A stretch of DNA of 64,000 nucleotides from positions 1 to 64,000 of the forward strand of contig CAMELV010000006.1 in the NCBI GenBank assembly GCA_945925985.1, read 5' to 3'. Source of the stretch: Comamonas sp. lk. GTDB lineage: Bacteria; Pseudomonadota; Gammaproteobacteria; Burkholderiales; Burkholderiaceae_C. A program made the translations under genes and the position numbers. This document shows, one piece after another, positions 3,052 through 23,408 of the stretch. The notes beneath the pieces were generated by a model that made no database searches, was not told where the DNA came from, and saw only the letters and a list, made by a program, of their open reading frames with translations. The number at the start of each line of letters is the position of its first letter. Within the stretch, counting starts at the first letter, position 1.

Positions 3052-3055
3052 TCGC

Positions 3056-4406: not shown

Positions 4407-5429
4407 CTACAGCAAGCTAGCGCGGTCTATCGGTGTACCCACCACGAACACGCAGTCACCCTGTTCAGTAATGGGTATCGCCTTGGTCACCACCACAAAG
4501 CCGTCGGTAGGGGAGCGCAGCAGCTCGGCCGGGCGGTCGGGGCGGTCCATGAACCAGAGTCGGCCCACCGGCTGGCCAGCCACCACAGGGTCACCGGGCT
4601 CCAACATGGCCTCAAACATACCGTCTTCGGGCGACACCACAATGTTGCGCGCGTCGCGCCCGTCGATGATGACCGCCGGTGGCAGGCCCATGCCGGCACG
4701 GGTCTGGACCTGGCCTTTCTGCACACCCACGTGGCGAAGTACGTTGTTCAGGCCATCCCAGGCCAGCCGGTGGATGGGCGCCGGGGTACGGCCGCCACCA
4801 CCCAGCTCGGTGGTGATCACCAGCTTGCCCTGGTTTTCGGCTTCCACCGGCAGCAGGCCGTTGCCGTTGATGTCAATGTAGAGGTAATGGTGGTCTGAGC
4901 ACCAGGCCTCCATGGCTTCCAGCATGGCTTTGCGCTGGGCCGGGTTGTCAACCACGTGCATGTGCGAGCAGGGCAGGAAATAAGCGCTTCGGCCACCCGA
5001 GTGCATGTCAATCACCACATCGGCCATGGGAAACAGCGCGCGGGTCAGGTAGTCAGCCAGCTGCTCATGCGGCGGGCCGTCGGGGCGGCCTGGGAAGGAG
5101 CGGTTGAAGTTGGCGCCCGAGGGCCAATTGCGGGTGTTGCCCTTGGAAGCAGTCGGTGACAACACCGGGATGACGATCACCCGGCCCGTCACCTGGTCCG
5201 GCTGCAACTCTTGGAGCAGGCGCATGGCGGCGACCTGGCCTTCGTACTCGTCGCCATGGTTGCCGGCCAGCACCAGCACGGTGGGCCCGTCGCCCTGCGC
5301 AATGCAGCCGATGTGGATGAAGGTACTGGCCCAACCGGCGGTGTTGGTGATCTTGTTGATGCGCAGGTGGCCGATCTGCTTGCCGGGGGCGTGCAGATCG
5401 ATGCTGCAGGAAACCGTAGAGGGGCTCAT
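4407..5429 (-). CDS. succinylglutamate desuccinylase/aspartoacylase family deacylase (copy 1)
   Basis: A zinc-dependent amidohydrolase of the AstE/aspartoacylase family (M14-like fold) that removes an acyl group from an N-acyl amine. It has 340 residues from the chosen start. The zinc triad is visible: H58 and E61 in GNHGDEYEG, and H143 in DMHSGG. The start at MSPSTVSC is preferred over one 10 codons upstream because GGAGG lies 7 bases before it. A paralogue with the same motifs lies at 12493-13515. It sits between a CocE hydrolase and the DUF1800 gene. The exact acyl group and amine are unknown. Confidence 0.88.
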   Translation of the reverse strand: MSPSTVSCSIDLHAPGKQIGHLRINKITNTAGWASTFIHIGCIAQGDGPTVLVLAGNHGDEYEGQVAAMRLLQELQPDQVTGRVIVIPVLSPTASKGNTRNWPSGANFNRSFPGRPDGPPHEQLADYLTRALFPMADVVIDMHSGGRSAYFLPCSHMHVVDNPAQRKAMLEAMEAWCSDHHYLYIDINGNGLLPVEAENQGKLVITTELGGGGRTPAPIHRLAWDGLNNVLRHVGVQKGQVQTRAGMGLPPAVIIDGRDARNIVVSPEDGMFEAMLEPGDPVVAGQPVGRLWFMDRPDRPAELLRSPTDGFVVVTKAIPITEQGDCVFVVGTPIDRASLL

Positions 5430-5549
5430 GGGGTTGCCTCCAATTGGCGCATCGGACACTCGTGGGTCACATTCATGAGATTGTTTGACATTTGCTTATT
5501 CAAGAGATTTTTCATTTTATACAGACTGGTTGGCCATTGAGAACATCAC
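5430..5549 (-). other. AT-rich gap inside the minus-strand operon
   Basis: About 120 bases between the first CocE hydrolase and the deacylase. Positions 5470-5530 are clearly richer in A and T than the flanking genes (for example TATAAAATGAAAAATC on the minus strand). A GGAGG ribosome-binding site for the deacylase lies at the far end. An internal promoter is plausible, but no clean -35/-10 pair was found. Confidence 0.4.
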
Positions 5550-7472: not shown

Positions 7473-7494
7473 AAAACCCCTTACTGCATTGCGT

Positions 7495-8259: not shown

Positions 8260-8306
8260 CAGACGCCACCTCCGGTTTTGGTCAAGGGCCTTGTTCAGTG
8301 TCCTGT

Positions 8307-9491
8307 TCAGGCGGCAAAAAATGGTGCGGCATCTGGCGTGTAGCGGGCCACGCCAGCCGGATCAAGTTCTATCCCGAGCCCTGGCTTATTGGGGATTGGC
8401 AGCATGCCATCGGCGTCAAGCACAAAGGGTTCACGCAGAATGCCGTCCACGTAGGGGCTGCCTCCAATGAACTCCACCAGGTCTACACCTGGGAAGGCGG
8501 TAGCCAATTGCAGGTCGGCAGCAACGCCCAGGGCGGTGTTCCAGCCGTGGCCCACATAACGCACGCCATGGTCCTGTGCCATCCAGACAATGCGGCGCTG
8601 TTCGCTGATGCCGCCGACCTTGGTGACATCGGGTTGCACGATGTCAAAGGCGCCGCGCTCTAGCCAGGGCAGAAATGACTGGCGTCGCGTCAGCACCTCT
8701 CCGCCCGCAATCGGCACCGGGCTGGCGCGTCGGAGGATACAAAAATCTTCCAGCGCGTCGGGCTTGAGGGCCTCTTCGAACCAGCCCACTTGGTAGTCGG
8801 CCAGCATCTCGGCCGAGCGCAGCGCCCATTTAAGGCCCTGCGGCCAGTGGGCGTCGCTGGCGCCAGGGTCTACAAACAGCTGGACATCTGGGCCCAGAGC
8901 GTCCCGGGTAGCGGCAATGATGGCGCGGTCCAGGCCCGCGTCATTCGTCCTGCCGAACGGGCCCCAACCCACCTTGAAGGCCTTGAAGCCCCGGGCCTTG
9001 TAGGGCGCCACGACGTCGTGCATGCGTTCGGGCATCTCCATCAACAGCGAGCAATAGGGGCGAACACGCTCAATGTAGCGGCCGCCCAGCAAGCTACCCA
9101 CCGACAAGCCGGTCGCCTTGCCAAGAATGTCCCACAGTGCGATGTCGATACCGCTGATGGTGTGCGTCAAGGTGCCGCCACGCCCCATCCAGAAGGTGTT
9201 CTGGTGCAGTTTTTCCGTCACCCGCTCCGGTTGCAGTGCGTTTTCACCTAAAAACAAGGGCTCAAGCACTTTCAGTGCGGCCTGCACCAGCCGGCCGTCG
9301 GTAAAGACACTGCCATAGCCCGTGATGCCGGCGTCCGTGTGGACCGCGATGAGCGCGTGAATGGAGTCCTCCGGCCTGATTTCGGCGGACCAACCCCCTT
9401 TGGGGCTCTCGCCAAACAGGGACGCCGCCACGATCGAACGAATCCGCACTGGCGGCAGAGTGGTCGATGGGGGTTGGCTCGATGGCACCAT
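8307..9491 (-). CDS. mandelate racemase/muconate lactonizing enzyme family protein (copy 1)
   Basis: A 394-residue enolase-superfamily enzyme, which abstracts a proton alpha to a carboxylate and then racemises or dehydrates. Visible active-site candidates are K173 in AFKVGWGP, the metal-ligand series D208 (FVDPG), the EE pair at 239-240 (WFEEAL) and E265 (GGEVLT), and H315 (VGHGWN). The usual WxEEP motif reads WFEEA here. The KVGWGPFGR segment resembles KFGWGPIGR of the paralogue at 20589. It lies 14 bases downstream of gntR. Sugar-acid dehydratase is the favoured guess. Confidence 0.86.
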   Translation of the reverse strand: MVPSSQPPSTTLPPVRIRSIVAASLFGESPKGGWSAEIRPEDSIHALIAVHTDAGITGYGSVFTDGRLVQAALKVLEPLFLGENALQPERVTEKLHQNTFWMGRGGTLTHTISGIDIALWDILGKATGLSVGSLLGGRYIERVRPYCSLLMEMPERMHDVVAPYKARGFKAFKVGWGPFGRTNDAGLDRAIIAATRDALGPDVQLFVDPGASDAHWPQGLKWALRSAEMLADYQVGWFEEALKPDALEDFCILRRASPVPIAGGEVLTRRQSFLPWLERGAFDIVQPDVTKVGGISEQRRIVWMAQDHGVRYVGHGWNTALGVAADLQLATAFPGVDLVEFIGGSPYVDGILREPFVLDADGMLPIPNKPGLGIELDPAGVARYTPDAAPFFAA

Positions 9492-9505
9492 TGGGACTCC
9501 TTATC

Positions 9506-10267: not shown

Positions 10268-10274
10268 ATTGGAT

Positions 10275-10298
10275 ATTGTATACTATTATAAAGTATGC
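10275..10298 (-). promoter_or_regulatory. candidate GntR operator 1, overlapping a -10 box
   Basis: The core ATACTAT-TAT-AAAGTAT (10280-10296) is an inverted repeat with one mismatch. It matches the perfect palindrome of operator 2 at 12424-12440, and similarity extends outward to ATTG on the left and GC on the right. On the minus strand it contains TATAAT (10290-10285), a consensus -10 box 17 bases before the gntR ATG. Binding here would block gntR transcription. No convincing -35 box was seen. Confidence 0.7.
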
Positions 10299-10352: not shown

Positions 10353-12341
10353 TCACCACCCCAAGCGCGGGACCCAGGTCGACCACGCCTTGTTCCAGTA
10401 CGGCTGTCCATTGACCGTGATGCTGGTTTCTACGCTGTGGTGCATCCCAGTTGCATCGCTGCGCGTGGTGCACTGCGCGTAGACCCGGCACATCCAGTCG
10501 GGTCGGCTCATGTCATAACTAAAGTCGCTGACGACACTGGCCTGAGCAGGGCGATGCAAGTCGACGGTATAGCGCGACCGATTGACACCCACACCCGAAT
10601 TGGTCCGGTAGCTGCAAGCCAATGTACCGGCAATCAGGTCTCGGGTGACTGCATACTCCGGCGCCGGAATCTGATCCTGGGGCAGGGGTTCGAACTGACT
10701 GGGCAAAAACTCAGGGGGCGGTAGCGCTGCGGGCTGAACCACCGGTAGCTCCAGCCGCGACGGTTGCGTGTTTCCACGGTGAAGATAGGCCACGTAATGT
10801 TGCGGTGTGGGCCAGGCATTGAGTACATCGGCGCCACTCACCATCAGGCAGATACGGTGCCCCGGGGCAAACCGATAGGCGGCAGCCTGCAGTGGCACGT
10901 CCAACGGGTAGACCCGACCCGGAATCAAAGCCTCGGGCTCGCTGTGTGAGTTCAGATGTGTCAGGTTGAGCACCGCTTTGGTGACCAGAACGCTGGTGCC
11001 ATCGGGCGCCACGTCACACAGCTTCAGACTCAAAAATGCGCTCTCCGCGCCGGCCTGGTAGTACAACACCGCGCGTGGAACACCGACCACTTCCAGGGCG
11101 CCAGACAAGGGCTCGCCGATGTAGCCCAGTGACAAACCCAAGTCAATGCGCTGATCGTCTGCCATGCCCCAGCCGGGGCTAAATTGACCTATCGCGTAGC
11201 GGCCCGCTGCGACGCCTGCGTCGGGTCGGTACTGTAATTTGTCGACGCCGGGCAGATCGGTCTGCGGCACGCTCTCGGCGTCAAGACGGCCTCCCGCACC
11301 CAGCCGAAACGACACCTTGCTGGCCGGCGGTGGCCATGCCGGCTCGTTGCGAAAATAACCCGGGTCTTCCCGGCGCAACGGTGCCGGCGCCACGTAATCT
11401 CTCACGAACACCGTGACCGGCGGCTCAAGGTCGACGGGTCGGGCGGGATCGGTATCCAGTCCTTTAAGGTATTTGTCAAACCAGCGCAGGCACTCGAACC
11501 GGTCACTCATACGCGGCAAAGGCCACGCATTCTCAGGGTAGTTGTGCGTCCAGGGGCCAACGATCACCCTTTTGGGGCAGCTCAGACGTTCAAACGTGTG
11601 CAGCAGATCATCGCCATACCAGTCGGCCCACCCGCCAATCAGGAACGTGGCCGCTTTGACCTTGTCGTGCTCGTCCCGGAGCAGCCTGGACTGCCAAAAT
11701 GGCCCGTCCAACAGGTTCTCCACATAGGCCAGGCTCCAGGGCGACGAACGCTCAAGGCGCTCGCGCCAAACGGCCTCCCACCGATCTCCCAAAAGCTCTG
11801 GGGCAGGCGGGGCGTAGTTGTACGCGGCCATCAATGGCGCAAAGTTTTCCATCGCAAAAAGGCGCAGCGTGCCGCCCGGGCAGGCCATGCCTTGGTACCA
11901 GTCGGAACACATTTGGCACAACACCACCGCCTTCAAGGCCGGCGGGGCCTGACGCGCTGCGTCAAAACAAACCCCCGCGGTGTAACTGATGCCGATCATG
12001 CCGACATTGCCATCACACCAGGGTTGTTCGGCGCACCACTGAATCACCTCCACACCATCTTGCACCTCGGACTCGCTCGTCGGCGAACTGCTAAAGCCAT
12101 CGGAATCACCCGTGCCCCGTATGTCGACATTGACGAAGACATAGCCCTGAGACGCGAAAAAAGGGTAGCGGGTGGCGCGAGGCCCGTATGCGCTGTTGTT
12201 GACCTTGTGGTAAGGCGTGTACTCGATGATGGCCGGTACCCGCTGCCCCGCAACTTCGGGCAGATACAGATCGGCTGCCAGAGTGATGCCATCAGGCATT
12301 GGGATGCGGGCGTTGCGGATTACTTTGACTGCGTACGTCAT
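10353..12341 (-). CDS. CocE/NonD family hydrolase (copy 2)
   Basis: A 662-residue alpha/beta hydrolase of the CocE/S15 esterase-amidase group. It has MPDGITLAADLYLPE (15-29), the conserved RGTGDSDG (75-82), nucleophile S119 in GMIGISYTAG, and a C-terminal domain with FAPGHRICLMVSGADVLN. There is no signal peptide. It diverges from the plus-strand deacylase/ABC block across a 151-base gap that holds a candidate GntR operator. Together with the copy at 5550 it gives the locus two hydrolases, presumably for different linkages or stereoisomers. Confidence 0.88.
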   Translation of the reverse strand: MTYAVKVIRNARIPMPDGITLAADLYLPEVAGQRVPAIIEYTPYHKVNNSAYGPRATRYPFFASQGYVFVNVDIRGTGDSDGFSSSPTSESEVQDGVEVIQWCAEQPWCDGNVGMIGISYTAGVCFDAARQAPPALKAVVLCQMCSDWYQGMACPGGTLRLFAMENFAPLMAAYNYAPPAPELLGDRWEAVWRERLERSSPWSLAYVENLLDGPFWQSRLLRDEHDKVKAATFLIGGWADWYGDDLLHTFERLSCPKRVIVGPWTHNYPENAWPLPRMSDRFECLRWFDKYLKGLDTDPARPVDLEPPVTVFVRDYVAPAPLRREDPGYFRNEPAWPPPASKVSFRLGAGGRLDAESVPQTDLPGVDKLQYRPDAGVAAGRYAIGQFSPGWGMADDQRIDLGLSLGYIGEPLSGALEVVGVPRAVLYYQAGAESAFLSLKLCDVAPDGTSVLVTKAVLNLTHLNSHSEPEALIPGRVYPLDVPLQAAAYRFAPGHRICLMVSGADVLNAWPTPQHYVAYLHRGNTQPSRLELPVVQPAALPPPEFLPSQFEPLPQDQIPAPEYAVTRDLIAGTLACSYRTNSGVGVNRSRYTVDLHRPAQASVVSDFSYDMSRPDWMCRVYAQCTTRSDATGMHHSVETSITVNGQPYWNKAWSTWVPRLGW

Positions 12342-12492
12342 GTGTCCTCCCTAAGGGCCAGCGCCTGCTGTCAGACCGTCGTTGTCAGCGTTTTAACTAA
12401 CAAGGCAAGCGGATGAACATTGTATACTTTTAGAAAGTATGCTATTGTCCTCGTGACAGTGTTCTTCCGTCTTTGATTCTGGAGCCCGTCTG
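12342..12492. other. divergent intergenic region between the two catabolic blocks
   Basis: This gap separates the start of the second CocE hydrolase (minus) from the start of the second deacylase (plus), so it must hold promoters for both directions. Its most striking element is the palindrome at 12419-12442. TATACT at 12423-12428 could be a plus-strand -10 box lying inside that operator, but no good -35 box pairs with it. Confidence 0.6.
12419..12442. promoter_or_regulatory. candidate GntR operator 2
   Basis: A perfect inverted repeat, ATACTTT-TAG-AAAGTAT (12424-12440), inside a 24-base block that differs at only a few central positions from the block at 10275-10298. It lies in the divergent gap between the CocE hydrolase and the deacylase/ABC block. 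FCD-type GntR regulators commonly bind short AT-rich palindromes like this. Assignment to the neighbouring GntR protein is inference from the matched pair. Confidence 0.7.
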
Positions 12493-13515
12493 ATGCCACT
12501 TGTGAAAAGTCGAGTCCAATGCGACATCGATTTCGACCGTCCGGGACGGCAAGCGGCTTTTCTGCGTGCGCCTAACTCCACCAATACCTCGGGCTGGGGT
12601 ACGGTCCAAATTCCGATTTTTGTCCTCAAGAATGGCGTCGGTCCAACGCTGCTGCTCACAGGTGGGGTGCACGGCGACGAGTACGAAGGCCAGATCGCCA
12701 TTTCGCGCCTGGCCCAAACGATCAAACCAGAGGATATATCTGGACGGCTGATCCTGATGCCCTCGGTGAACCAGCCAGCGGCGCTCAACCAAAACGGCAC
12801 CAGGATGTCCCCCATTGACGGGCGCGACCTGAACCGCTGTTTCCCGGGCAACCCAACGGGCACGTTCAGCGACATGCTGGCGCACTTTATAGACAGCGCT
12901 ATTCTTCCGCACGTCGACGTCGCGGTGGACATGCATACTGGCGGTCACTCGGCCGAGTTCGCTTTGTGCACCGTCATGCACGCCATCGAAGACCTCGAAC
13001 TGCGCCGCAAAACTCTGGCGGCCGCCACAGCATTTGGGGCACCATTTAACGTGATTTTTTCGGGTGTTGACGAAGGTTCTACCTTGACTTCGGCGATCGA
13101 GCGGCGAAAAATTCTGTGCATTGGCACCGAAATCGGCGGCTGGGGCAGGGTCAGCTTGGAGGCCCTGCGCATCGGAGAGCGGGGTATACGAAACTTGATG
13201 CAGCACCTGGGCATGACAGCGGGAACGCCTGACACCACTCAAAAAAGTGGTGGCCCAGGGACCCGGCACATGGTGGTACCCAACCCAAGCTGTTACAGCT
13301 TCGCACCGAGCGGCGGCCTGTTTGAGCCGTGTCAGCTGGCAGGAGACGCGGTGGAAGCAGGCCAGGTTGCCGGCTTTCTTCATTTTGTCGAGGATCTTGA
13401 CCGAGCGCCGGTCGCCTTGCATTACCAAGCCAGCGGCCTGCTCTGGGCAGCCTGCGGCCCCGGGCGAGTACTGCGCGGTGACTGCGTCGCGGTGGTGATG
13501 CAATCTTATGAGTAA
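12493..13515 (+). CDS. succinylglutamate desuccinylase/aspartoacylase family deacylase (copy 2)
   Basis: A 340-residue zinc deacylase paralogous to the one at 4407. The triad is visible: H60 and E63 in GGVHGDEYEG, and H148 in VDMHTGGHSAEF. RDLNRCFPG (111-119) matches the substrate-arginine region of aspartoacylase-like enzymes. It is the first gene of the plus-strand block, just after the divergent operator region, and precedes the ABC transporter. It probably removes an acyl group, or opens an amide, in the imported compound. The substrate is unknown. Confidence 0.88.
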   Translation: MPLVKSRVQCDIDFDRPGRQAAFLRAPNSTNTSGWGTVQIPIFVLKNGVGPTLLLTGGVHGDEYEGQIAISRLAQTIKPEDISGRLILMPSVNQPAALNQNGTRMSPIDGRDLNRCFPGNPTGTFSDMLAHFIDSAILPHVDVAVDMHTGGHSAEFALCTVMHAIEDLELRRKTLAAATAFGAPFNVIFSGVDEGSTLTSAIERRKILCIGTEIGGWGRVSLEALRIGERGIRNLMQHLGMTAGTPDTTQKSGGPGTRHMVVPNPSCYSFAPSGGLFEPCQLAGDAVEAGQVAGFLHFVEDLDRAPVALHYQASGLLWAACGPGRVLRGDCVAVVMQSYE

Positions 13516-13589
13516 ACCAAAGCCTGAGGCAGGCAATGCCAACGTGTCCGTCACGGACTTCCATGATCCAACCCTAGGAGACTGATGTG

Positions 13590-15116
13590 ATGAAAAAAAC
13601 CTACCTTACTCTTGCAATGTCCGCATTGCTTGTCCTGACAAGCGCTGGGCCGGCGCACGCACAGAAAAAAGGAGGCGATGTGGTGATCGGGATGACGGCA
13701 GCGCCGCCCTCTCTGGACCCGCACGCCACCTCGGCGCAAGTGGCACGCAATGTCAATTTGCACATTTTCGAAACCCTGTACGCGCGGGACGAAGGTGCTC
13801 GGCCCGTGCCTGACTTGGCAGAAGGGGTCACCATTTCTGCCGATGGCCTGACCTACTTGTTCAAGCTGCGCACGGGCGTCAAGTTTCACAACGGCAAAGA
13901 CATGACTTCGGCCGACGTCGTGGCCTCATTGGAGCGCTATCGCAAGTCGGGCGCCTCGGCCAGTCTGATCGGTGCCATCGACTCGGTCAGCGCCAGCGGA
14001 CCGAATCAGGTCACCATCAAGCTGAAAACCGTGCAGTCCACCTTCCTTGGCAATTTGTCGAGCCCAAGGGCACCGATCGCCATCATGCCCTCCGAAGAAG
14101 CCGCCAAGGATATGGGCAAAGCCAGCTCCATTGGCACCGGGCCGTACAAGTTTGTTGAGTACAAGCCTGATAGCCACATCAAGATCACGCGATTTGACGG
14201 CTACAAGCCCAACCCAGCCTACAAAGAGCGTGACGGCTTTGCTGGCGCCAAGATTGCCTACATCGACAACGTAACCTTCCGCTTCATGCCCGAGACCAGT
14301 GCGCGTGATGCGGCTGTCGAGACCGGTCAAATCCAGCTGAACGAGACAACCGATGGTCCAACCGCCAAGCGCCTGAAAGGTAACCCCAACTTCCAGGTGA
14401 TTCCCGTGCTGCCCTTTGCCGCCATGATTCTCAAGTTCAACATGGCGCAGGGCGCTGGCACTGACCTGAACTTCCGCCGTGCGGTGGCACAGTCCCTTGA
14501 CCTTGAAGAAATCATGGCAGTGGCTTACCCCGATATTTACCGCATCGACACCAGCTGGGTCTATGGGGGTTCGGCCTACCACTCAGCCCGCAAGACCCCC
14601 AAGCAAGACCTTGCCGCTGCCAAAGCGACATTGGCCAAGTCTGGCTACAAGGGTGAGAAGCTGACCTTTATCGTGCACAACGACCGCCCCACGGTCGATA
14701 CGGCCACCGTTATTCAGCAACAGGTATCGCAAATTGGCGTCAACATGGAGGTGAAGGTAGCTGACTGGCCCACCACATCCAACCTGGGCCTCAAGAGCGA
14801 CACCGGCTGGAACCTCTGGACTCATGGCTTCGGGATTGAGCCCTACGAGGGACCCGCCTCTGCCATGTCACATTGGGTGAAAGGGCAAGGTCAGCGCAAG
14901 GCAGACCCCGTCATCGACGGCTTGTTCGAAAAGTTCAATAGCGAAATGAACGTTGACGTTCAGAAAAAATTGTTCGTCGATTTCGAGAATCAGATGAACG
15001 ACCAGGCCATTGCCGTAAATATGGGGAACTATGGCCTGTTTCAGGTCGCTACCTCCAAGCTGAAAAACTTCAAGGCCTACCGTATCCCACGCATGTGGGG
15101 TGTTTGGCTGGATTGA
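13590..15116 (+). CDS. ABC transporter substrate-binding protein, peptide/nickel (SBP_bac_5) family
   Basis: A periplasmic binding protein of about 508 residues. A lysine-rich N-terminus and hydrophobic core ending AHAQ form a Sec signal peptide (about residues 1-25). The mature start, KGGDVVIGMTAAPPSLDPH, is typical of the DppA/OppA family. AGGAG lies 9 bases before this ATG; a GTG three bases upstream is also possible. It heads a complete transporter with two permeases and two ATPases. The family takes up oligopeptides, glycosides and similar medium-sized ligands, so the substrate may be a conjugate rather than a free acid. Confidence 0.92.
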   Translation: MKKTYLTLAMSALLVLTSAGPAHAQKKGGDVVIGMTAAPPSLDPHATSAQVARNVNLHIFETLYARDEGARPVPDLAEGVTISADGLTYLFKLRTGVKFHNGKDMTSADVVASLERYRKSGASASLIGAIDSVSASGPNQVTIKLKTVQSTFLGNLSSPRAPIAIMPSEEAAKDMGKASSIGTGPYKFVEYKPDSHIKITRFDGYKPNPAYKERDGFAGAKIAYIDNVTFRFMPETSARDAAVETGQIQLNETTDGPTAKRLKGNPNFQVIPVLPFAAMILKFNMAQGAGTDLNFRRAVAQSLDLEEIMAVAYPDIYRIDTSWVYGGSAYHSARKTPKQDLAAAKATLAKSGYKGEKLTFIVHNDRPTVDTATVIQQQVSQIGVNMEVKVADWPTTSNLGLKSDTGWNLWTHGFGIEPYEGPASAMSHWVKGQGQRKADPVIDGLFEKFNSEMNVDVQKKLFVDFENQMNDQAIAVNMGNYGLFQVATSKLKNFKAYRIPRMWGVWLD

Positions 15117-15134
15117 TCTTCAAGTCAAAACGAT

Positions 15135-16079
15135 ATGGGACGCTTCATCATCCGCCGCCTTCTGGCGTCGATCCCGGTGTTGTTTTTGGTGTCCCTGATC
15201 ACGTTTGGCCTGTTGTGGCTGGTGCCGGGTGACCCGGCATCCATCTTTCTAGACGCCAGCGCCACTGCCGAGGCGCTGGACCGTGTTCGTCGGGAGCTCG
15301 GGCTTGACCGGCCCTTTCTGGTTCGCATGGGTGAGTGGTACATCCGGTTGTTGCAGGGTGATCTGGGAACCTCTCTGTTGCTTAACCGCAGTGTCACGGA
15401 GGCCATCTTGGAGCGGCTGCCCATCACGCTGTCGCTGACCGCCATGGCCTTTGTGGTATCCGTGCTGCTCGGCGTGACGGCAGGGGTGATGGCGGCAGTG
15501 CGCCATGGGCGCGCCGCTGACCAGAGCCTGATGAGCCTGGCGCTGCTTGGCCTGTCGATCCCCGAGTTCTGGCTGGGTCTGGTGCTGGTCTGGCTGGTGG
15601 CTGTGCTGGTGCCTATTTTTCCTGCTGGCGACTATGTCGCCTTTGCCAAAGACCCCTTGCAATGGGCCCGCCATCTGGCGCTACCCACCTTTACACTGGC
15701 CTGCATCCAGATGGGATTTGTCGCCCGCATGACGCGCTCTAGCATGCTCGAAGTGTTAAGCCAAGACTTCGTGCGCACTGCCCGCGCCAAAGGCCTTCCC
15801 GAGCCTTATGTGGTGCTACGGCACGGCTTGGTCAACGCCATGGTGCCGATCGTCACCGTGATGGGCATCATGGTCGGCGCGCTCCTTGGCGGTGCTGTGG
15901 TCACCGAGCAGGTTTTCTCCATTCCCGGCTTGGGGCGTCTGATCATTGGCGCCGTGTTGTCGCGCGATTTCCCGGTGATTCAGGGGGGGTTGTTGTTCCT
16001 CGCACTGATTTACCTCAGTGTCAATCTGGCGGTTGATCTCCTGTACGCGGTGATAGACCCGCGGGTCAGACTGGGCTAA
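15135..16079 (+). CDS. ABC transporter permease, DppB family
   Basis: A 314-residue inner-membrane permease of the dipeptide/oligopeptide transporter family. It begins MGRFIIRRLLASIPVLFLVS and has the usual six hydrophobic segments. The cytoplasmic coupling region RTARAKGLPEPYVVLRHGL matches the family EAA motif. It starts 18 bases after the binding-protein stop and ends 3 bases before the second permease. It forms the channel with the DppC-type partner. Confidence 0.92.
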   Translation: MGRFIIRRLLASIPVLFLVSLITFGLLWLVPGDPASIFLDASATAEALDRVRRELGLDRPFLVRMGEWYIRLLQGDLGTSLLLNRSVTEAILERLPITLSLTAMAFVVSVLLGVTAGVMAAVRHGRAADQSLMSLALLGLSIPEFWLGLVLVWLVAVLVPIFPAGDYVAFAKDPLQWARHLALPTFTLACIQMGFVARMTRSSMLEVLSQDFVRTARAKGLPEPYVVLRHGLVNAMVPIVTVMGIMVGALLGGAVVTEQVFSIPGLGRLIIGAVLSRDFPVIQGGLLFLALIYLSVNLAVDLLYAVIDPRVRLG

Positions 16080-16082
16080 GCC

Positions 16083-16928
16083 ATGACACAGCGAGCCAGT
16101 TTTGTGCGCCGACTGCTGTCCAACCGCTCATTCACCATCGGAGCGTCCCTGGTCGGGCTGGTACTGCTGCTGGCTTTGCTGGCGGGTGTCATCGCCCCGT
16201 TTGACCCACTCAAGGGCAACTTCCGAGCGCGCATGATGGCCCCTAGTCTGGAGCATTGGATGGGCACCGATCAATTCGGCCGCGACATCCTGTCGCGGGT
16301 GCTGCATGGCGCACGCATTTCTTTGCAGATCGGGTTCATGGTGGCCATCATCACGGCCTTGGCTGGCGTGCTGATCGGCGCGAGTTCGGGTTACTTCCGG
16401 CGCCTGGACGGCCCCCTCATGCGGCTGATGGACGCCTTTATGGCTTTCCCCTCCATCATTCTGGCGATCGCCGTGAGCTCTGTCCTGGGCGCATCGGTGA
16501 TCAATGTGATTTTTGCGCTGGCCATCGCGGCAACGCCACATACGGCGCGTATCGTCCGCGCCTCGGTGATGGTGGTGCGCGAAATGGAATTTGTCGAGGC
16601 CGCTCGCGCCCTTGGCGCCGGACATGCGCGCATCTTGTTTCGCCACATCATGGCCAACGCCATGGCGCCGCTGATGGTGCGCATCACCTATGTGTTTGCG
16701 GTTGCAATTCTGAACGAGGCTGTACTTTCGTTCATCGGTGTCGGCCCGCCGCCGCCAGCACCCACCTTTGGCGCCATCATCGCCAACGGCCGAGACTTTA
16801 TCGTGGCGGCCCCCTGGATCACGGTGGCCCCCGGGCTTGCAATTCTGGTCAGTGTGTTGGGCCTGAATTTGCTGGGCGACGGCTTGCGTGACGTCCTCGA
16901 CCCGCGCATGTCGGTGAATACCCGATGA
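16083..16928 (+). CDS. ABC transporter permease, DppC family
   Basis: A 281-residue partner permease. It has the N-terminal short arm of the DppC family (GVIAPFDPLKG, HWMGTDQFGRDILSRVLHGAR), hydrophobic helices, and the coupling segment EAARALGAGHARILFRHI. The stop overlaps the next gene's start by 4 bases, which indicates translational coupling. It forms a heterodimeric channel with the preceding permease. Confidence 0.92.
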   Translation: MTQRASFVRRLLSNRSFTIGASLVGLVLLLALLAGVIAPFDPLKGNFRARMMAPSLEHWMGTDQFGRDILSRVLHGARISLQIGFMVAIITALAGVLIGASSGYFRRLDGPLMRLMDAFMAFPSIILAIAVSSVLGASVINVIFALAIAATPHTARIVRASVMVVREMEFVEAARALGAGHARILFRHIMANAMAPLMVRITYVFAVAILNEAVLSFIGVGPPPPAPTFGAIIANGRDFIVAAPWITVAPGLAILVSVLGLNLLGDGLRDVLDPRMSVNTR

Positions 16929-17920
16929 GTCACGCTACACCCATGCTGCAGGTGCAACAGGTCACCACCACGCTGGGGACCGGCGGCCCAGAAATCCTGA
17001 GCGCGGTGGACATCAGCCTCAACAGCGGCGAGGTGCTCGGTGTCGTCGGTGAGTCAGGGTCGGGCAAGAGCATGCTGGCGCTGTCGATCATGGGGCTGCT
17101 GCCCCGGCCAATCGCCGTCAGCGGCGGCGAAATCCTGCTCCAGGGCCGCAACCTGCTGCAATTGCAGGCGCAAGAATTGCGCACCCTGCGCGGCAAAGAC
17201 ATGGCCATGATTTTCCAGGAGCCCATGACCTCGCTCAACCCGGTCATGCGCGTGGGTCAACAAATCGGTGAGGTGCTCCGCTGGCATAGGTCAATGCAGG
17301 GGGAGGCTGCGCGCCAAGAGGGCATTGCCCTGCTAAAGCGGGTGGAGATGCCAGACCCACAACGCCAGATCGACGCGTACCCCCACGAACTCTCAGGCGG
17401 CATGCGGCAGCGGGTGATGATTGCCATTGCCCTGGCCGGTCGGCCCAAGCTATTGATCGCCGACGAGCCCACCACCGCGTTGGATGTGACGATTCAAGCC
17501 CAGATCCTGGAGCTGATACGCAACATCCAGCGCGATGACGGTATGTCTGTGTTGTTGATCACGCATGACCTGGGCGTGATCGCCGAAATGTGCGACCGGG
17601 TCGCCGTCATGTATGCAGGGCGGGTCGTCGAGCAGGGTGCGGTTCTGGACATCTTTGACCGTCCCGCTCACCCCTATACCCGGGGTCTGCTCGCGTCACG
17701 CCCCAAGATTTCCGCCGGCGCCAACTGGCTCAGCACCATTGAGGGCACGGTGCCTGCGGTTGGGCAAATGGGTACCGGTTGCAGCTTTGCACCGCGCTGT
17801 GCACTTGCCGGGCAGGACTGTGCGCAACGGCCACCTTTGCGAGAAGTCGGCGTGGCACACCAAGCGGCCTGTGTTCGCCCGTTTGAAGGCGCGGCTGAGC
17901 CAAAGGCAGAGACAGCATGA
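16925..17920 (+). CDS. ABC transporter ATP-binding protein, DppD family
   Basis: A 331-residue ATPase. Walker [10 protein letters not shown]-loop [10 protein letters not shown], signature LSGGMRQR, Walker [13 protein letters not shown] and the switch HDLG are all present. The C-terminal oligopeptide-transporter extension has [15 protein letters not shown], a cysteine pattern seen in DppD-type subunits. It overlaps both neighbours by 4 bases. It works with the DppF-type ATPase to drive import. Confidence 0.92.
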
Positions 17921-18909
17921 GCAGCGTCATCCCCTTGATCGAGGCGCGCGGACTGAGCAAGTATTTTGAGCGGCCTCGGCGCTTTTTGGCCCCTGCAGAG
18001 CCCCCATTGCGCGCGGTGGACGGCGTTGACCTCAGCATTGCACCGGGCGAGACGCTGGGTCTGGTGGGCGAGTCGGGCTGTGGCAAATCCACCACCGGCC
18101 GCTTGCTGTTGCGCCTGATAGAACCCAGTGGCGGCACCATCCTGCACCATGGTGAGGACATCACACGGCTGGACGCCGCCGGCATGCGCAGCAAGCGACG
18201 CGCGATGCAGATCGTGTTTCAGGACCCCTATGGTTCTCTGAACCCGCGCATGCGGGTGTCTGAACTCATCGCCGAGCCACTGGTGATCCATAGCGTGGGC
18301 GACAACGCCAGCCGGGTCGCCCGGGTGCAACGCCTGCTGGACCTGGTGAGCCTGCCCGCCAGCGCCCTGCAGCGCTATCCCCATGAATTTTCTGGCGGCC
18401 AGCGGCAGCGGATTGGTATCGCCCGGGCCTTGGCACTGGAACCTGAGTTCATCATCGCGGATGAGGCCGTCTCAGCACTCGACGTGTCGGTGCAAGCCCA
18501 GGTGATTAACCTGCTGCGTGAGCTGCAACGCGACCTGAAGCTCACCTACCTGTTCATCTCGCACAACCTGGCCGTGGTACGCAACATCAGCGACCGCGTG
18601 GCGGTAATGTACCTGGGCCGCATCGTTGAAGTGGCGCCGGCCAACGCGCTGTTTGCGCGCCCACAGCACCCCTACACCCAGGCCCTGTTGGCGGCCTTGC
18701 CGACCGACCATCCTTCGCAACGCCGAACCCATGCCGTCATCAAAGGTGACCTGCCCAAGCCGGACACCGCCAGCGTGGGTTGCAGATTTGCCAACCGTTG
18801 CCCCCATGCCCAATCCCAGTGTTTGACCCAAGACCCCGCTTTCCACGAGACCGCACCCAGCCACCAGGTGGCCTGTTTGCGGATCGCTGATGGCAGCCTG
18901 AAGCTTTGA
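17917..18909 (+). CDS. ABC transporter ATP-binding protein, DppF family
   Basis: A 330-residue second ATPase of the transporter. Walker [14 protein letters not shown]-loop [12 protein letters not shown], signature [10 protein letters not shown], Walker [12 protein letters not shown] and switch HNLAVV are visible. The C-terminus has the cysteine pattern [15 protein letters not shown]. Walker B carries EAVSALD rather than the more common EPVSALD. It overlaps the upstream ATPase by 4 bases and lies 11 bases before the M81 peptidase gene. Confidence 0.92.
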
Positions 18910-18920
18910 AAGGTGACCCT

Positions 18921-20417
18921 ATGACCACACGCCCCCGCATCCTGATTGCCGAGTGCATGCAGGAGATTTCCTCCTTTAACCCGCTTGCCGGCGACTACGA
19001 CAACTTCCATATCGAGCGCGGCGACGACATGCTGGCACAGGACGGCATCAACTCATCGCTGGGCGGTGCCCTCGCCGTGTTTCGCGAAACTGGCATGGAT
19101 CCGGTGTTAACTATCAGCGCTCGCTCCGGCTCGGCCGGGATTCTGATGGCACAGGCCTGGCAGCGTCTGGCGGGGGAGGTGCTGGCGGCAATCGCAGCCC
19201 AAGCCGGCAGTGGCATTGACGGCGCCTATTTCTCGCTTCATGGCGCCATGGCGGCTGAGGGTGAGCTCGACCCGGAAGGCTATTTGCTGGCTGAAACCCG
19301 CAAATTGCTTGGGCCAGACGTTCCCATCGTCATCTCGCTCGACCTGCACGGCATTCTGACCGACCGCATGCTCAAGCAAATCAACGGTGTCACGATCTAC
19401 CACACCTACCCACATGTGGACTTTGCCTCCACTGGCCAGCGGGCGGCCCGCGTACTGCACCGACTTGTCACGGAGAAGATCCGGCCAACCATCGCACGTG
19501 TGGTAATCCCGGCGCTGGTGCGGGGCGACGAACTGATCACCAAGTCCGGCTGCTATGGCGAGTTGATCCGCGAAGCACGGCGGCTAGAGCTTGAGGGCGT
19601 GGCCATGTCCGCCGGCATCATGATCGGCAACCCGTTTACCGACGTGCCCGAGCTGTGCTGCCAAGTGTTGGTGGCCACTGCGGGTGATGCTGCCGTGGCC
19701 GAGCGAGAGGCGCTCAGACTGGCTCGCGAATTCTGGCCACTGCGTCACCGCATGCAGGGTAAGCTGATCTCGTTGGACCGTGCCATTGCCCAGGCCAGCA
19801 GCATTGCGGGCCCAGTTATTTTCACCGACGCGGCAGACGCCACCTCCTCCGGTGCCACCGGCGACTCCAACCTGATCATCCGGGGCTTGCGCGATGCCGG
19901 TTATCGCAAAAAGGTGTTGGCCCAGATTGTCGACCCGATGGCGGCTGCAGCCGCGCATCGGGCCGGTGTCGGCGCACAAATCGACGTCAGTCTGGGCGGC
20001 GCCATAGACGCCAAGCGCTTTGCGCCGATGCAGGTCTCAGCCCGGGTGCGCCTGCTGTCAGATGGCAAGGCGCAACTGGAAACCATGAAGCTCGGTTTGG
20101 ATGCCGGACCCACCGCCGTGCTGGAGTTTGACAACTTTACCGTGGTGGTGTTCAGCCGGACGCTGACCTTGCTGGACCGCGCCATGTATTACGCCAATGG
20201 CCTGGACCCGACGGACTTTGACCTGACGGTGGTGAAGTCACCCCACACCGAGCACCACATGTACGACGCCTGGGTGGACAACAACTTCAATGTGGACGTG
20301 CCGGGCGCCACTTCCGCTAACCTGAAAACCTTGGGCCACACCATTTGTGCCCGGCCCATGTACCCGCTGGATGCGGATGCTGGCTTTGAGCCGCGGGCCG
20401 TTATCTACCGCAGCTGA
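18921..20417 (+). CDS. M81 family metallopeptidase (MlrC-like)
   Basis: A 498-residue member of the M81 family, named after MlrC of the microcystin-degradation pathway, which hydrolyses linearised peptides. Motifs are IAECMQEISSFNP at the N-terminus, SLHGAMAAEGELDPEG, SLDLHGILTDRM and YHTYPHVDFASTG, which carry the likely metal-binding Asp/His residues, and TDAADATSSGATGDS further on. ATG 18921 is preferred over an in-frame start 15 bases upstream because AAAGGTGA precedes it. It is translated directly after a peptide-type ABC transporter. A peptide or amide bond in the imported compound is a reasonable inference; microcystin itself is not implied. Confidence 0.88.
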   Translation: MTTRPRILIAECMQEISSFNPLAGDYDNFHIERGDDMLAQDGINSSLGGALAVFRETGMDPVLTISARSGSAGILMAQAWQRLAGEVLAAIAAQAGSGIDGAYFSLHGAMAAEGELDPEGYLLAETRKLLGPDVPIVISLDLHGILTDRMLKQINGVTIYHTYPHVDFASTGQRAARVLHRLVTEKIRPTIARVVIPALVRGDELITKSGCYGELIREARRLELEGVAMSAGIMIGNPFTDVPELCCQVLVATAGDAAVAEREALRLAREFWPLRHRMQGKLISLDRAIAQASSIAGPVIFTDAADATSSGATGDSNLIIRGLRDAGYRKKVLAQIVDPMAAAAAHRAGVGAQIDVSLGGAIDAKRFAPMQVSARVRLLSDGKAQLETMKLGLDAGPTAVLEFDNFTVVVFSRTLTLLDRAMYYANGLDPTDFDLTVVKSPHTEHHMYDAWVDNNFNVDVPGATSANLKTLGHTICARPMYPLDADAGFEPRAVIYRS

Positions 20418-20588
20418 GCCGATGCGGGTCATCCATTGGTGGGATCAGGGCGGCGGCGCATTCGGCTCCGCGGCTGTCCCCCGCCCTGCGGGCTCCTCCT
20501 TGATGCCGCTGCGCCGAACGCACCACCACCCTGATCTGGCGAGGTGTTTGGTGCGCAGCTTGCCAACGAAAGAAAAGACCCCTTGAGC
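20418..20588 (+). other. intergenic region with GC-rich hairpin
   Basis: About 170 bases between the M81 gene and the next enolase-superfamily gene, the largest gap in the plus-strand block. It contains CCCGC-CCT-GCGGG near 20479-20493, a short GC hairpin without a following T run, so not a convincing intrinsic terminator. GC-rich degenerate inverted sequence surrounds it and may be an old intergenic repeat. No promoter is evident. Confidence 0.4.
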
Positions 20589-21764
20589 ATGAAGATTGAC
20601 GCCGTTGATTTCTTTTACCTGTCCATGCCCGAGGTCACCACCGAGGCCGATGGCAGCCAGGATGCTTTGTTGGTGCGCGTTGCCGTCGGTGGGCTGACTG
20701 GCTTCGGCGAGTGCGAGGCGGCGCCGCTGCCCTCGATCGCGGCCTTTGTCTGCCCGATGTCGCACGGCGCTTGTCAGCCGGTCAGTGCCTCGGTGCTGGG
20801 CCGCACCCTGAATGAGCCGCAAGACATCGCCGCCATCGCGGCCGACGTGGCTTACAACAGCATGGACGTGCTGCAAGCTGCGCACACCTGGTCCGGCATT
20901 GAGATGGCGCTGTGGGACCTGTTGGGCAAGGCGCGTGGCGAGCCAGTTTGGAAGCTGCTGGGCTACCCGTCTGCGCACCCCAAAACACCTTATGCCTCGC
21001 TGCTGTTTGGCGACACCGCACAGGAGACACTGGCCCGCGGGCAAGATGCCCTACGCCGCGGCTTCAAGGCGGCCAAGTTTGGCTGGGGACCGATCGGCCG
21101 GGGCACGGCGGACCAAGACGCCGATCACTTCTTTGCAGCGCGCGAGGCGCTGGGGGCCGACGGTATCCTGCTGGTCGACGTGGGCCAGATCTTTGGCGAA
21201 GACGTCGCCCGTGCCTCGGCCCGTCTGGGCGCCTTGGAACAGGCGCGGGCCTTGTGGCTGGAGGAGCCGTTTCACGCTAATGCGCTGCAACAATACGGCG
21301 AACTGGCCAAGCGCTGCAAAAGCGTCAAGCTGGCTGGCGGCGAGGGCGCCCACAATGCCGCCATGGCGCAGCACTTGATCGATTACGGCGGCATTGGCTA
21401 TGTTCAGATCGACTGCGGGCGCATCGGCGGCATCGGGCCGGCCAAACAGGTGGCCGACTACGCCGCTGCGCGGGGTGTCACCTATGTGAACCACACCTTC
21501 ACTTCGCATCTGGCCTTGAGTGCTTCACTCCAGCCCTATGCCGGCTTAGCCGGGCACACCATTTGTGAGTACCCGGCGGCGCCCAAGGCCCTGGCGGTGG
21601 CGATGACGCAGAACCACCTGACACCCGACGCAATGGGGCAGATCAGCGCGCCAAACGCGCCTGGCCTGGGTATGGCGATCGACGCGCAGGCGGTGCAACA
21701 CTATCAAATTGACGTCGAGATCCGCATCGCGGGTCGCACGCTGTATGCTTCCCCGCAGTTTTAA
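20589..21764 (+). CDS. mandelate racemase/muconate lactonizing enzyme family protein (copy 2)
   Basis: A 391-residue enolase-superfamily enzyme. Active-site candidates are K163 in AAKFGWGP, metal ligands D197 (LVDVG), the EE pair 225-226 (WLEEPF) and E252 (GGEGAH), and H302 (VNHTFTS). The start MKIDAVDFF is chosen because it aligns with the family N-terminus; a start 15 codons upstream adds an untypical extension. It is followed by an SDR and an FAH-family hydrolase, the gene order of non-phosphorylative fuconate/rhamnonate-type pathways. Its likely job is therefore dehydration of a sugar acid to a 2-keto-3-deoxy acid. Confidence 0.88.
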   Translation: MKIDAVDFFYLSMPEVTTEADGSQDALLVRVAVGGLTGFGECEAAPLPSIAAFVCPMSHGACQPVSASVLGRTLNEPQDIAAIAADVAYNSMDVLQAAHTWSGIEMALWDLLGKARGEPVWKLLGYPSAHPKTPYASLLFGDTAQETLARGQDALRRGFKAAKFGWGPIGRGTADQDADHFFAAREALGADGILLVDVGQIFGEDVARASARLGALEQARALWLEEPFHANALQQYGELAKRCKSVKLAGGEGAHNAAMAQHLIDYGGIGYVQIDCGRIGGIGPAKQVADYAAARGVTYVNHTFTSHLALSASLQPYAGLAGHTICEYPAAPKALAVAMTQNHLTPDAMGQISAPNAPGLGMAIDAQAVQHYQIDVEIRIAGRTLYASPQF

Positions 21765-21776
21765 AAGGACACCCCC

Positions 21777-22523
21777 ATGAACCAACTTGACATGAAGGGC
21801 CGCCACGCGGTCATCACCGGTGGCGCCACCGGGCTGGGCTATGCCATTGCCCAGCGCATGCTGGCCTCGGGTGCCAACGTCACGCTGTGGGACCGCGACA
21901 CTCAGGCACTGACCAAGGCCCGCGCCGAATTAGGCAGCCAGGCCCATGGCGTCACGGTGGATGTGGCCGAGCACGCCTCGGTGGTGGCCGCAGTGGGCCA
22001 GACCCTGGCGCATTCGCCGGCCATTGATGCACTGGTCAATTGTGCTGGCATCACCGGCCCCAATACGAAAGTCTGGAGCTATCCCGTGGCGGACTGGCAG
22101 CAGGTGATGCAGGTGAACCTGAACGGCCTGTTTTACTGCTGCCGCGAAATCACGCCGCACATGCGTGAGCGCAACTACGGCCGCATAGTCAACATCGCCT
22201 CGGTAGCTGGCAAGGACGGCAACCCCAACGCCAGCGCCTACAGCGCCAGCAAAGCTGCAGTGATGGCACTCACCAAATCGCTGGGCAAGGAGCTGGCCGA
22301 CACCGGCATCCGCGTTAACTGCGTCACGCCAGCGGCCGTCAAGACCGCCATATTCGACCAGATGACGCCCGAGCACATCGCCTTCATGTTGTCCAAGATT
22401 CCGATGGGGCGCTTTGGCACGCCAGAGGAAGTGGCCGCCATGGTAAGCTGGCTGTGCACCGAAGACTGCTCGTTTTCGACTGGCGCGGTGTTTGATCTCT
22501 CGGGTGGCAGATCCACCTACTGA
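21777..22523 (+). CDS. SDR family oxidoreductase (copy 2), probable keto-deoxy sugar-acid dehydrogenase
   Basis: A 248-residue short-chain dehydrogenase. TGGATGLG lies at residues 14-21, NCAGITG at 88-94, catalytic S142, and Y155-x3-K159. AAAGGACA precedes the ATG. Between an enolase-superfamily dehydratase and an FAH-family hydrolase, it fits the dehydrogenase that converts a 2-keto-3-deoxy acid to a 2,4-diketo-3-deoxy acid. This role is inferred from context and family resemblance, not from specificity residues. Confidence 0.88.
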   Translation: MNQLDMKGRHAVITGGATGLGYAIAQRMLASGANVTLWDRDTQALTKARAELGSQAHGVTVDVAEHASVVAAVGQTLAHSPAIDALVNCAGITGPNTKVWSYPVADWQQVMQVNLNGLFYCCREITPHMRERNYGRIVNIASVAGKDGNPNASAYSASKAAVMALTKSLGKELADTGIRVNCVTPAAVKTAIFDQMTPEHIAFMLSKIPMGRFGTPEEVAAMVSWLCTEDCSFSTGAVFDLSGGRSTY

Positions 22524-22559
22524 CAATAAAAATCCTCTTATTCTGCTGAAAGGCGACAC

Positions 22560-23408
22560 ATGAAACTGGTACGTTATGGCAACCCCGGCAAGGAAAAACC
22601 CGGCCTGATTGACGCGGGCGGTAAGCTGCGCGACCTCAGCGCCATCGTGCCCGACATCGGCCCGGCGCAACTTGACGCCGCCGTATTGGCCAAACTGGCC
22701 AAGCTTGACACTGACAAGCTGCCCGCCGTGCGCGGTACGCCTCGCATGGGCTGCCCGGTGGCTGGCGTTGGCAAGTTCATCGCCATCGGCCTGAACTACG
22801 CCGATCATGCCGCTGAGTCGGGTGCGCCAATCCCCAAAGAGCCAATCGTGTTCATGAAGGCCACCACCTGCATTCAGGGCGCGAACGACCCGGTCATGCT
22901 GCCCAAAGGCTCGGTCAAGTCCGACTGGGAAGTAGAGCTGGGCATTGTTATCGGCACGCGTGCACGCTACGTGACGCAGAAAGCCGCACTGGACCATGTG
23001 GCCGGCTACTGCACCATCAACGATGTGAGTGAGCGCGAATACCAGATCGAACGCGGCCCACAGTGGGACAAGGGCAAGGGTTGCGACACCTTCGGCCCAA
23101 TCGGCCCCTGGCTGGTCACGCGCGACGAGATTGCCAACGTGCAGAAATTGTCAATGTGGCTGGATCTGAACGGCAAACGCATGCAAACCGGTAGCACCAA
23201 GACCATGATTTTTGGCGTGGCCAAGCTGGTGAGCTATGTCAGCCAGTTCATGACCTTGATGCCGGGCGACGTCATCACCACCGGCACTCCACCCGGCGTC
23301 GGTCTGGGCATGAAGCCGCCGCTCTACCTCAAAAAGGGCGACGTCATGACCCTGGGCATTGAAGGCCTGGGCGAGCAACGACAGGTGGTGGTGCCCTTCA
23401 AGCTATAG
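22560..23408 (+). CDS. fumarylacetoacetate hydrolase family protein, probable diketo-deoxy-acid hydrolase
   Basis: A 282-residue FAH-fold hydrolase. GLNYADHAAESG (78-89) and the metal ligands E124, E126 (DWEVELG) and D155 (TINDVSERE) are present, as is the C-terminal MPGDVITTGTPPGVG. The N-terminus MKLVRYGNPGKEKPGLID resembles enzymes that cleave 2,4-diketo-3-deoxy sugar acids to pyruvate and a hydroxy acid. It ends the plus-strand catabolic block. A toxin-antitoxin pair begins 8 bases later. Confidence 0.9.
   Translation: MKLVRYGNPGKEKPGLIDAGGKLRDLSAIVPDIGPAQLDAAVLAKLAKLDTDKLPAVRGTPRMGCPVAGVGKFIAIGLNYADHAAESGAPIPKEPIVFMKATTCIQGANDPVMLPKGSVKSDWEVELGIVIGTRARYVTQKAALDHVAGYCTINDVSEREYQIERGPQWDKGKGCDTFGPIGPWLVTRDEIANVQKLSMWLDLNGKRMQTGSTKTMIFGVAKLVSYVSQFMTLMPGDVITTGTPPGVGLGMKPPLYLKKGDVMTLGIEGLGEQRQVVVPFKL

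Follow-up and report, generated by a model that had tools for sequence, protein, structure and literature searches.

The first 64 kb (64,000 nucleotides) of contig C6 of Comamonas sp. lk, the window analyzed here, carry two adjoining groups of catabolic genes, each with its own CocE-type hydrolase, deacylase, enolase-superfamily enzyme and SDR oxidoreductase. This raises the question of whether the two groups are duplicated or parallel sets, as a first-pass annotation of the window proposed, or the arms of one system whose paired enzymes came together separately. From a comparison of the locus with its relatives in other genomes, we favor, with a probability of about 0.5, a single system of two divergent arms around a GntR regulator, which would import conjugated sugar acids, release the acid and break it down; the same estimate covers the view that the deacylase and CocE "twins" are separate acquisitions and not duplicated halves.

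All eight enzymes of the four families were confirmed by Pfam or profile matches and by position, as the first-pass annotation had listed them, and their reading frames are open at the positions given below (genome size, 4.29 Mb in 72 contigs). Genes of the minus arm bear the prefix M_, and those of the flanking block at 10353-23408 the prefix F_. The minus arm runs in the order GntR, M_enol, M_SDR, M_CocE, M_deac, a DUF1800 gene (3056-4402) and a DUF1501 gene (1903-3051), with 4 to 90 bases between neighbors. F_CocE also lies on the minus strand, directly upstream of GntR and between GntR and F_deac. The plus arm consists of F_deac, an Opp binding protein, OppBCDF, M81, F_enol, F_SDR and FAH, and at four of its junctions the genes are either 3 bases apart or overlap by 4 bases. 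The features are as follows.

4407-5459, minus strand: M_deac, AstE/AspA-type zinc deacylase (DoeB-like), accessory to the core; PF24827, 122 bits
5550-7472, minus strand: M_CocE, CocE/NonD hydrolase, accessory; TIGR00976, 338 bits; cocaine esterase, 236 bits
7495-8259, minus strand: M_SDR, SDR oxidoreductase, gluconate-5-dehydrogenase-like; NF004778, 276 bits, below the cut-off of 303
8307-9491, minus strand: M_enol, enolase superfamily, MR-like, probable dehydratase, core; PF13378/PF02746
9506-10267, minus strand: GntR/FCD regulator between the two arms, core; PF00392 and PF07729
10353-12341, minus strand: F_CocE, CocE/NonD hydrolase, accessory; TIGR00976, 280 bits
12493-13515, plus strand: F_deac, AstE/AspA-type zinc deacylase, core; PF24827, 126 bits; PDB 3cdx, 483 bits
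13587-15116 (likely start at ATG 13590), plus strand: Opp-type solute-binding protein; PF00496
15135-16079, plus strand: Opp permease B; PF00528 and PF19300
16083-16928, plus strand: Opp permease C; PF00528 and PF12911
16925-17920, plus strand: Opp ATPase D; PF00005 and PF08352
17917-18909, plus strand: Opp ATPase F; PF00005 and PF08352
18906-20417, plus strand: M81 (MlrC-like) metallohydrolase, core; PF07364 and PF07171
20544-21764, plus strand: F_enol, enolase superfamily, core; PF13378; PDB 2hzg, 575 bits
21777-22523, plus strand: F_SDR, L-2-keto-3-deoxyrhamnonate 4-dehydrogenase-like; PDB 6d9y, 311 bits; Lys207 and Arg245 conserved
22560-23408, plus strand: FAH-family protein, 2,4-diketo-3-deoxy sugar-acid hydrolase-like; NF053535, 469 bits (cut-off 500); PDB 8gsr, 353 bits

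The true start of F_enol is probably at 20589, since its annotated relative in Cereibacter sphaeroides starts at residue 16 of the frame that opens at 20544. Translation of M81 likewise appears likely to begin at the first ATG, at 18921, as it does for the binding protein.

A search of genome contigs with F_deac recruited 549 loci, the best 80 of which were kept, and a locus was counted as core when either enolase was matched at 55% or more; 20 of the 80 were core loci. In this count several near-identical Bosea loci stand separately, two entries (L008 and L135) are probably one record, and some loci end soon after the enolase gene as fetched. The core is a divergent arrangement in which an enolase-GntR unit faces F_deac, usually with Opp, M81 and an enolase. 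M_enol and F_enol were each found at 55% or more in 19 of the 20 core loci (both in 18), and M81 at that level in 19 of 20 compared with none of the 60 other loci. At 45% or more, GntR was present in 16 of the core loci, OppB and OppC in 15 each, and OppD and OppF in 11 each. On the other hand, none of the 20 contained a CocE of either type at 40% or M_SDR at 50%, and M_deac at 45% or more was seen in one (Devosia 67-54, L024). No conserved gene was found after F_enol in the relatives; an EamA transporter occurs there in L134, and the other open reading frames (ORFs), several of them picked by length and perhaps not genes, mostly have no Pfam match.

Whole-genome searches with F_enol gave matches in 3 of the 300 genomes sampled from the order and in 6 of 399 from the family (its own included), and in none of the four other sampled genomes of the genus; those with M_deac gave 1 of 300 and 4 of 399. 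The cluster is therefore patchy, and in some hosts it is plasmid-borne. The core is present on plasmid pA of C. sphaeroides 2.4.1 and in Martelella NC18, with a 56-58% match to F_SDR. Two further loci, from alphaproteobacterial and Rhodospirillales metagenome-assembled genomes (MAGs; L044 and L045), have KxGWG enolases adjoining distant (41%) deacylase homologues, an arrangement which suggests that the link between deacylase and enolase is older than the core.

The relatives of the same family differ in what accompanies this core. In G379, an SDR-enolase-GntR unit faces Opp-M81-enolase with no F_deac at that locus, a 72% relative of M_SDR adjoins M_enol (L129), and a relative of M_deac lies on another contig. 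In G552, a 60% relative of M_CocE, which does not match the GxS[YW] pattern (L132), stands next to the binding-protein gene of the Opp arm, and a second CocE (41%) lies on a small contig with M_enol. The M_deac relative of G673 is on a different contig from the Opp arm. Matches to F_CocE at an E value of 1e-60 in 10 genomes with a core enolase were only 31-36% identical. When 398 genomes of the phylum were searched with M_enol, 11 matched, its own included; three of the others matched at 75, 75 and 61%, and the remaining seven at 35-39%. Its close relatives G1042 and G997 also have deacylase and Opp-type genes, the Opp genes of G997 being only 26-53% alike.

In G778, the order is an SMP-30 lactonase, F_enol, a binding-protein ABC set, GntR, a family-3 binding protein with a permease, M_enol, FAH (68%) and SDR (58%). 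No deacylase, M81, Opp set or CocE was recognized in the 32 kb fetched, in which two ORFs had no Pfam match; outside this stretch, only CocE and FAH were looked for in that genome. Because G778 keeps the enolases, SDR and FAH, the deacylase, M81, Opp and CocE genes appear to form a module by which a conjugated substrate enters. Plasmid pSM-1 of Skermanella mucosa carries F_enol with TRAP transporters and a DHDPS-family enzyme, with an SDR-FAH pair about 7 kb away; the enolase adjoining F_enol there is not of the M_enol type. Sinorhizobium mexicanum has a 49% relative of F_enol with a GMC oxidoreductase, an aldehyde dehydrogenase and an aldolase/citrate-lyase-family gene, and Klebsiella pneumoniae plasmids (two viewed of six matching) have M_enol without F_enol, together with GntR, a non-orthologous SDR and a sugar MFS porter. 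In these records and in G778, sugar-acid-type genes take the place of the entry module where it is missing. Both Klebsiella plasmids viewed (L195 and L196) are conjugative, with transposase genes near this small cassette, in which the enolase is of the M_enol type (72-73%).

These neighborhoods bear on the possibility that the substrates are peptides or amino acids carrying N-acyl or other modifications; the enolases would then act on a hydroxy-acid part of such a peptide, which SDR and FAH would finish. The Opp importer, the DoeB-like deacylases and M81 all belong to peptide- or amide-type families, and OppB adjoins the F_deac homologue in 22 of the 60 loci without core enolases. However, the enolases, SDR and FAH persist in the G778 stretch without a recognized Opp set, deacylase or M81, and M_enol travels with a sugar MFS porter in Klebsiella. 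We therefore regard peptide degradation as rather unlikely.

The genes that close the plus arm point to a sugar acid. F_SDR is similar over its full length to 6d9y. It keeps Lys207 and Arg245, which correspond, by an alignment offset counted by hand, to Lys209 and Arg247 of 6D9Y, and it has the YSASK motif of the Ser-Tyr-Lys triad. Passages of PMC11199699 point to Lys209 and Arg247 as residues of the rhamnonate-type dehydrogenase, 6D9Y itself being only a putative L-2-keto-3-deoxyrhamnonate 4-dehydrogenase. An assignment of F_SDR as an L-2-keto-3-deoxyfuconate dehydrogenase was considered and rejected: the R-T-R-R pattern described for that enzyme is broken in F_SDR by an Ala at the position of Arg148, three before the catalytic Tyr as judged by eye, and the rhamnonate type thus fits better. 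FAH is near the model for 2,4-diketo-3-deoxy-L-rhamnonate hydrolase (NF053535) but falls short of its cut-off and so is not a member by rule. A match to FAH was found in all 10 genomes with a core enolase, a count that lacks a matched control and is given no weight as proof. Judged by these matches, F_SDR and FAH resemble enzymes of the diketo route for L-rhamnonate.

The chemistry of the two enolases was examined in alignments. At least 95% of the rows (22 M and 25 F) keep Asp208, Glu239/Glu240, Glu265, Asp288 and His315 of M_enol and their F_enol counterparts; the metal ligands among them are presumptive. Both enolases have the hallmark of the MR subgroup, three acidic metal ligands and a His-Asp dyad (Asp288-His315 in M_enol). 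On the second strand, both have KxG (Lys173 and Gly175 in M_enol, Lys178 and Gly180 in F_enol), conserved in both families, and neither has the KxK of two-base racemases. An enzyme of the MR subgroup that lacks the second lysine is left with a single base, as befits a dehydratase and not a racemase. The retention of the ligands and the dyad, with KxG in place of KxK, thus suggests that both are dehydratases. They are not members of the L-rhamnonate dehydratase model NF011968, against which they score 112 and 65 bits with a cut-off of 393.

Structural matches raise an alternative in which the two enolases would serve the lactone and open forms of one compound and not two epimers: one of them would be a lactone cycloisomerase, comparable to D-galactarolactone cycloisomerase, and the other would dehydrate the hydrolyzed acid. 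The second-best PDB match of M_enol, 4ggb/4hpn (178 bits), is presumably the galactarolactone cycloisomerase of Agrobacterium, 5xd7, named 3,6-anhydro-L-galactonate cycloisomerase, is also matched, and a lactonase gene adjoins F_enol in G778. In the alignment, however, the KxG of both window enolases is replaced by KxK in 4ggb, and the best match of M_enol, 3sjn, has no named function. We consider a cycloisomerase in this pair unlikely.

The first-pass annotation had drawn attention to motifs common to the pairs, and these are indeed present. HGDEYEG, found in both deacylases together with DMH(S/T)GG, is family-wide (91 of 98 sampled deacylase rows), as is NR.FPG (96 of 98); DMH[ST]GG occurred in 9 of 98. 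The enolase motif K.GWGP.GR was present in 44 of 83 sampled enolase rows, 23 of which best match M_enol and 21 F_enol, both sets including repeat copies of the window genes. The shorter KxGWG occurred in 49 of the 83, every one best matching M_enol or F_enol; the 34 rows lacking it include two of the F_enol type (L023 and L024). This distribution supports a common origin of M_enol and F_enol, which, as members of one KxGWG group, appear to be an ancient pair. The identities within the pairs were 34.7% over 334 residues (deacylases), 34.6% over 289 (enolases), 31.3% over 246 (SDRs, of which F_SDR is L-KDR-dehydrogenase-like) and 25.0% over 609 (CocEs).

The number of pairs expected to lie at least this near to each other was estimated for random placement in a genome of 4.29 Mb, with rounded distances. 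About 1.8 such pairs were expected for the enolases (26 genes over the cut-off in the genome), and the enolase pair is therefore unremarkable by number. The corresponding values were 0.02-0.08 for the deacylases (4 strong rows or all 7) and 0.01-0.03 for the CocEs (4 strong rows or all 6 over the cut-off), so that both pairs exceed random placement, although catabolic genes cluster anyway. Elsewhere in this genome, three enolase-superfamily genes lie within about 4 kb (contig C2, 126785-130836), and with the 26 enolases over the cut-off this indicates that neighboring enolases are common here.

Within the genome, the closest relative of F_deac is a third copy on contig C27 (39%, 227 bits), followed by M_deac (35%, 195 bits), and that of M_deac is F_deac (194 bits). 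F_CocE scores 277 and 270 bits against two other CocEs of the genome and 107 bits against M_CocE. The closest relative of F_enol is M_enol (125 bits), which is itself nearer to two other enolases (158 and 144 bits). Trees were built after removal of repeats, near-copies and short pieces. In the deacylase tree, made by a quick method (77 of 98 rows, F_deac of the window being row L002_2420), the M_deac type formed its own group (SH-aLRT 100) apart from the F_deac type. The two window CocEs were split deeply, at 100/100, in a tree of 10 rows (9 of 15 sampled plus L189). In the enolase tree (65 of 83 rows, among which a few near-copies cut at locus ends remain), the M_enol and F_enol families were each supported at 100/100 and joined at 91/82 with an outside row, L045, inside the group; a second outside row, L044, joined at 94/90. 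The 23 other enolase rows of the same genome, some of them near-copies, fell on the opposite side of the tree. Because these joins are unstarred and long branches were flagged, a shared origin of M_enol and F_enol is favored, short of proof.

The partners of M_deac were also compared. Three of its four relatives (67-89%; in G379, G552 and G673) are off the core contig, those of G379 (82%) and G673 (89%) being on a separate contig; the fourth (52%, in Devosia L024) adjoins the core. Both contigs are long only in G379, and the M_deac contigs of G552 (22 kb) and G673 (10 kb) leave a distant linkage possible. The eight ORFs flanking the M_deac relatives in L131, L133 and L137 have unrelated Pfam matches or none, and a shared M_deac operon was rejected.

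For both the deacylases and the CocEs, then, the two members of the pair belong to different, well-supported groups and have other partners elsewhere, which is the outcome that the first-pass annotation had named as refuting its proposal; the SDRs, compared by identity, are consistent with this, and the enolases are loosely grouped. An old duplication, or two epimers or steps of one compound, as raised by the first-pass annotation, remains live for the enolases alone, which form the 91/82 group and occur together in most core loci. A pair of four-enzyme sets, duplicated or parallel, that between them process two linkages or epimers is very improbable at this locus, and block duplication is largely refuted: the families do run in parallel, the enolases group loosely, Devosia 67-54 has both deacylase types close together with the core, and G552 has a CocE on each of two contigs bearing core enolases, but the deacylases and CocEs are not mutual closest relatives, and the core loci keep both enolases in 18 of 20 cases while lacking CocE at 40% and, in all but one, M_deac at 45%. 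A truly doubled locus was seen in L025 (an alphaproteobacterial MAG, VGDO01000001.1), where two tandem F_deac-type deacylases lie between two Opp sets, with a CocE (31%) on each side.

In the single system that we favor, the Opp-type ABC importer would bring in a sugar acid joined to another group through an amide or ester linkage, and F_deac and M81, joined in this strain by the two CocEs and M_deac, would cut the linkages and release the acid. M_enol and F_enol, whose assignment at the family level is established, would each dehydrate an aldonate; preferably, they would act on two epimers or two related acids and yield the same 2-keto-3-deoxy acid. F_SDR would then oxidize C4, and FAH would split the 2,4-diketo acid into pyruvate and either glycolate or lactate, the same ending as that of the L-rhamnonate diketo pathway. 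Since two enolases accompany one SDR and one FAH in G778 and in the plus arm here, the two reactions may converge on one 2-keto-3-deoxy acid, most simply from two C2 epimers. We know of no pathway for such conjugates (aldonoyl amides), although no literature search was aimed at this class of compounds.

Several observations weigh against this proposal. F_SDR and FAH at 50% or more were found in only 5 and 1 of the 20 core loci, respectively, some of which end early, and the figure of 20 core loci refers to the 80 best of the 549 recruited and not to all of them. FAH lies below its NCBIfam cut-off. In four relatives of the same family (G379, G673, G552 and G497) the F_SDR-FAH pair (80-88%) is off the core contig, and in G673 and G497 it adjoins a second SDR and an enolase like talarate/galactarate dehydratase (277 and 290 bits; cut-off 500); the pair therefore looks like a general finishing module which is linked to the core in this genome. 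F_enol occurs without M_enol in Skermanella, Sinorhizobium (49%), G065 and L023, and M_enol without F_enol in Klebsiella and Streptomyces. Peptides and metals are also among the ligands of Opp binding proteins, so that a peptide with no sugar part is possible. The substrates of all the proteins discussed here are predicted.

A broader form of the proposal can be put forward tentatively: a widely moved pathway for amide- or ester-conjugated sugar acids, with Opp uptake, an exchangeable plug-in entry of zinc deacylase, M81 and CocE, and a pair of anciently duplicated KxGWG enolases dehydrating two C2 epimers to a single 2-keto-3-deoxy acid. If conjugates are indeed the substrates, they would be a new nutrient class for proteobacteria; if not, the account of a duplicated operon is still corrected. 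In addition, a natural experiment is provided: some genomes combine these two enolases with the Opp/amidase entry module, and another combines them with a lactonase and different transporters. PDB 2hzg aligns with the F_enol of the C. sphaeroides pA cluster over all 391 residues (865 bits), and judging by this alignment it is the enolase of that core cluster. Its placement in a conserved cluster with a deacylase and M81, in a species used in the laboratory, makes the function of a structure without a named one testable. The solved deacylase nearest to F_deac, 3cdx, presumably also comes from C. sphaeroides.

Other genes of the window border the locus. The DUF1501-DUF1800 pair (1903-4402) adjoins M_deac with 4-base gaps; similar pairs occur near the F_deac-type cluster of Mesorhizobium 65-26 (L023; 41% each) and near another CocE of the same genome (L143; 31-36%). 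A second catabolic run on the minus strand (25058-33869) contains an RraA-like aldolase, a galactarate/altronate-dehydratase C-terminal protein, an IclR regulator and a third enolase-superfamily gene, together with DctM and DctP TRAP genes and a class III CoA-transferase. Only the first four were searched for in the core loci, and at 40% they were found in none of the 20.

The first-pass annotation knew of no described pathway of this composition, and our literature search, which most subscription journals lay outside, found none either. A search for 2HZG gave no paper and no function, those for M81 with enolase and Opp and for combinations of terms gave nothing relevant, that for FAH with enolase gave the known sugar routes, and the papers listed for deoxyrhamnonate dealt mostly with fungal or other sugar routes. 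The locus was set beside the nearest known systems. DoeB, the N-acetyl-diaminobutanoate deacetylase of ectoine degradation, is of the same AstE/AspA family, F_deac scores 230 bits against its structure 6twm, and HGDEYEG and NRxFPG are family-wide; however, M_deac scores 252 bits against TIGR02994 (cut-off 402.7), and no other ectoine-degradation gene was found among the scanned genes of the region. By this curated cut-off ectoine degradation was ruled out. Microcystin degradation was ruled out in the same way: M81 belongs to the family of MlrC, microcystinase C, and matches 7ylq at 120 bits, but it scores 128 bits against NF041767 (cut-off 999), and no other Mlr protein was found among the scanned neighbors. 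Both CocEs share S15 and PepX_C domains and a GxSY motif with cocaine esterase and alpha-amino acid ester hydrolase and are CocE/NonD members by TIGR00976 (cut-off 66.3), whereas their matches to cocaine esterase are only about 136 and 236 bits and they form two divergent clades.

The pA cluster of C. sphaeroides 2.4.1, with the 2hzg enolase, has the same core genes as the window; unlike the window, it shows neither a CocE nor a second deacylase among the annotated genes of the stretch shown, for which the gene table is incomplete and gives family names only. The non-phosphorylative diketo-hydrolase pathway of L-rhamnose has no Opp, deacylase or M81 in the passages of PMC11199699 and PMC6336799 consulted, and its dehydratase model is failed by both window enolases. 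On the other hand, F_SDR matches 6d9y with both basic ligands, and FAH matches 8gsr and NF053535. The system is probably akin to the known non-phosphorylative sugar-acid pathways, with a predicted entry part for conjugates.

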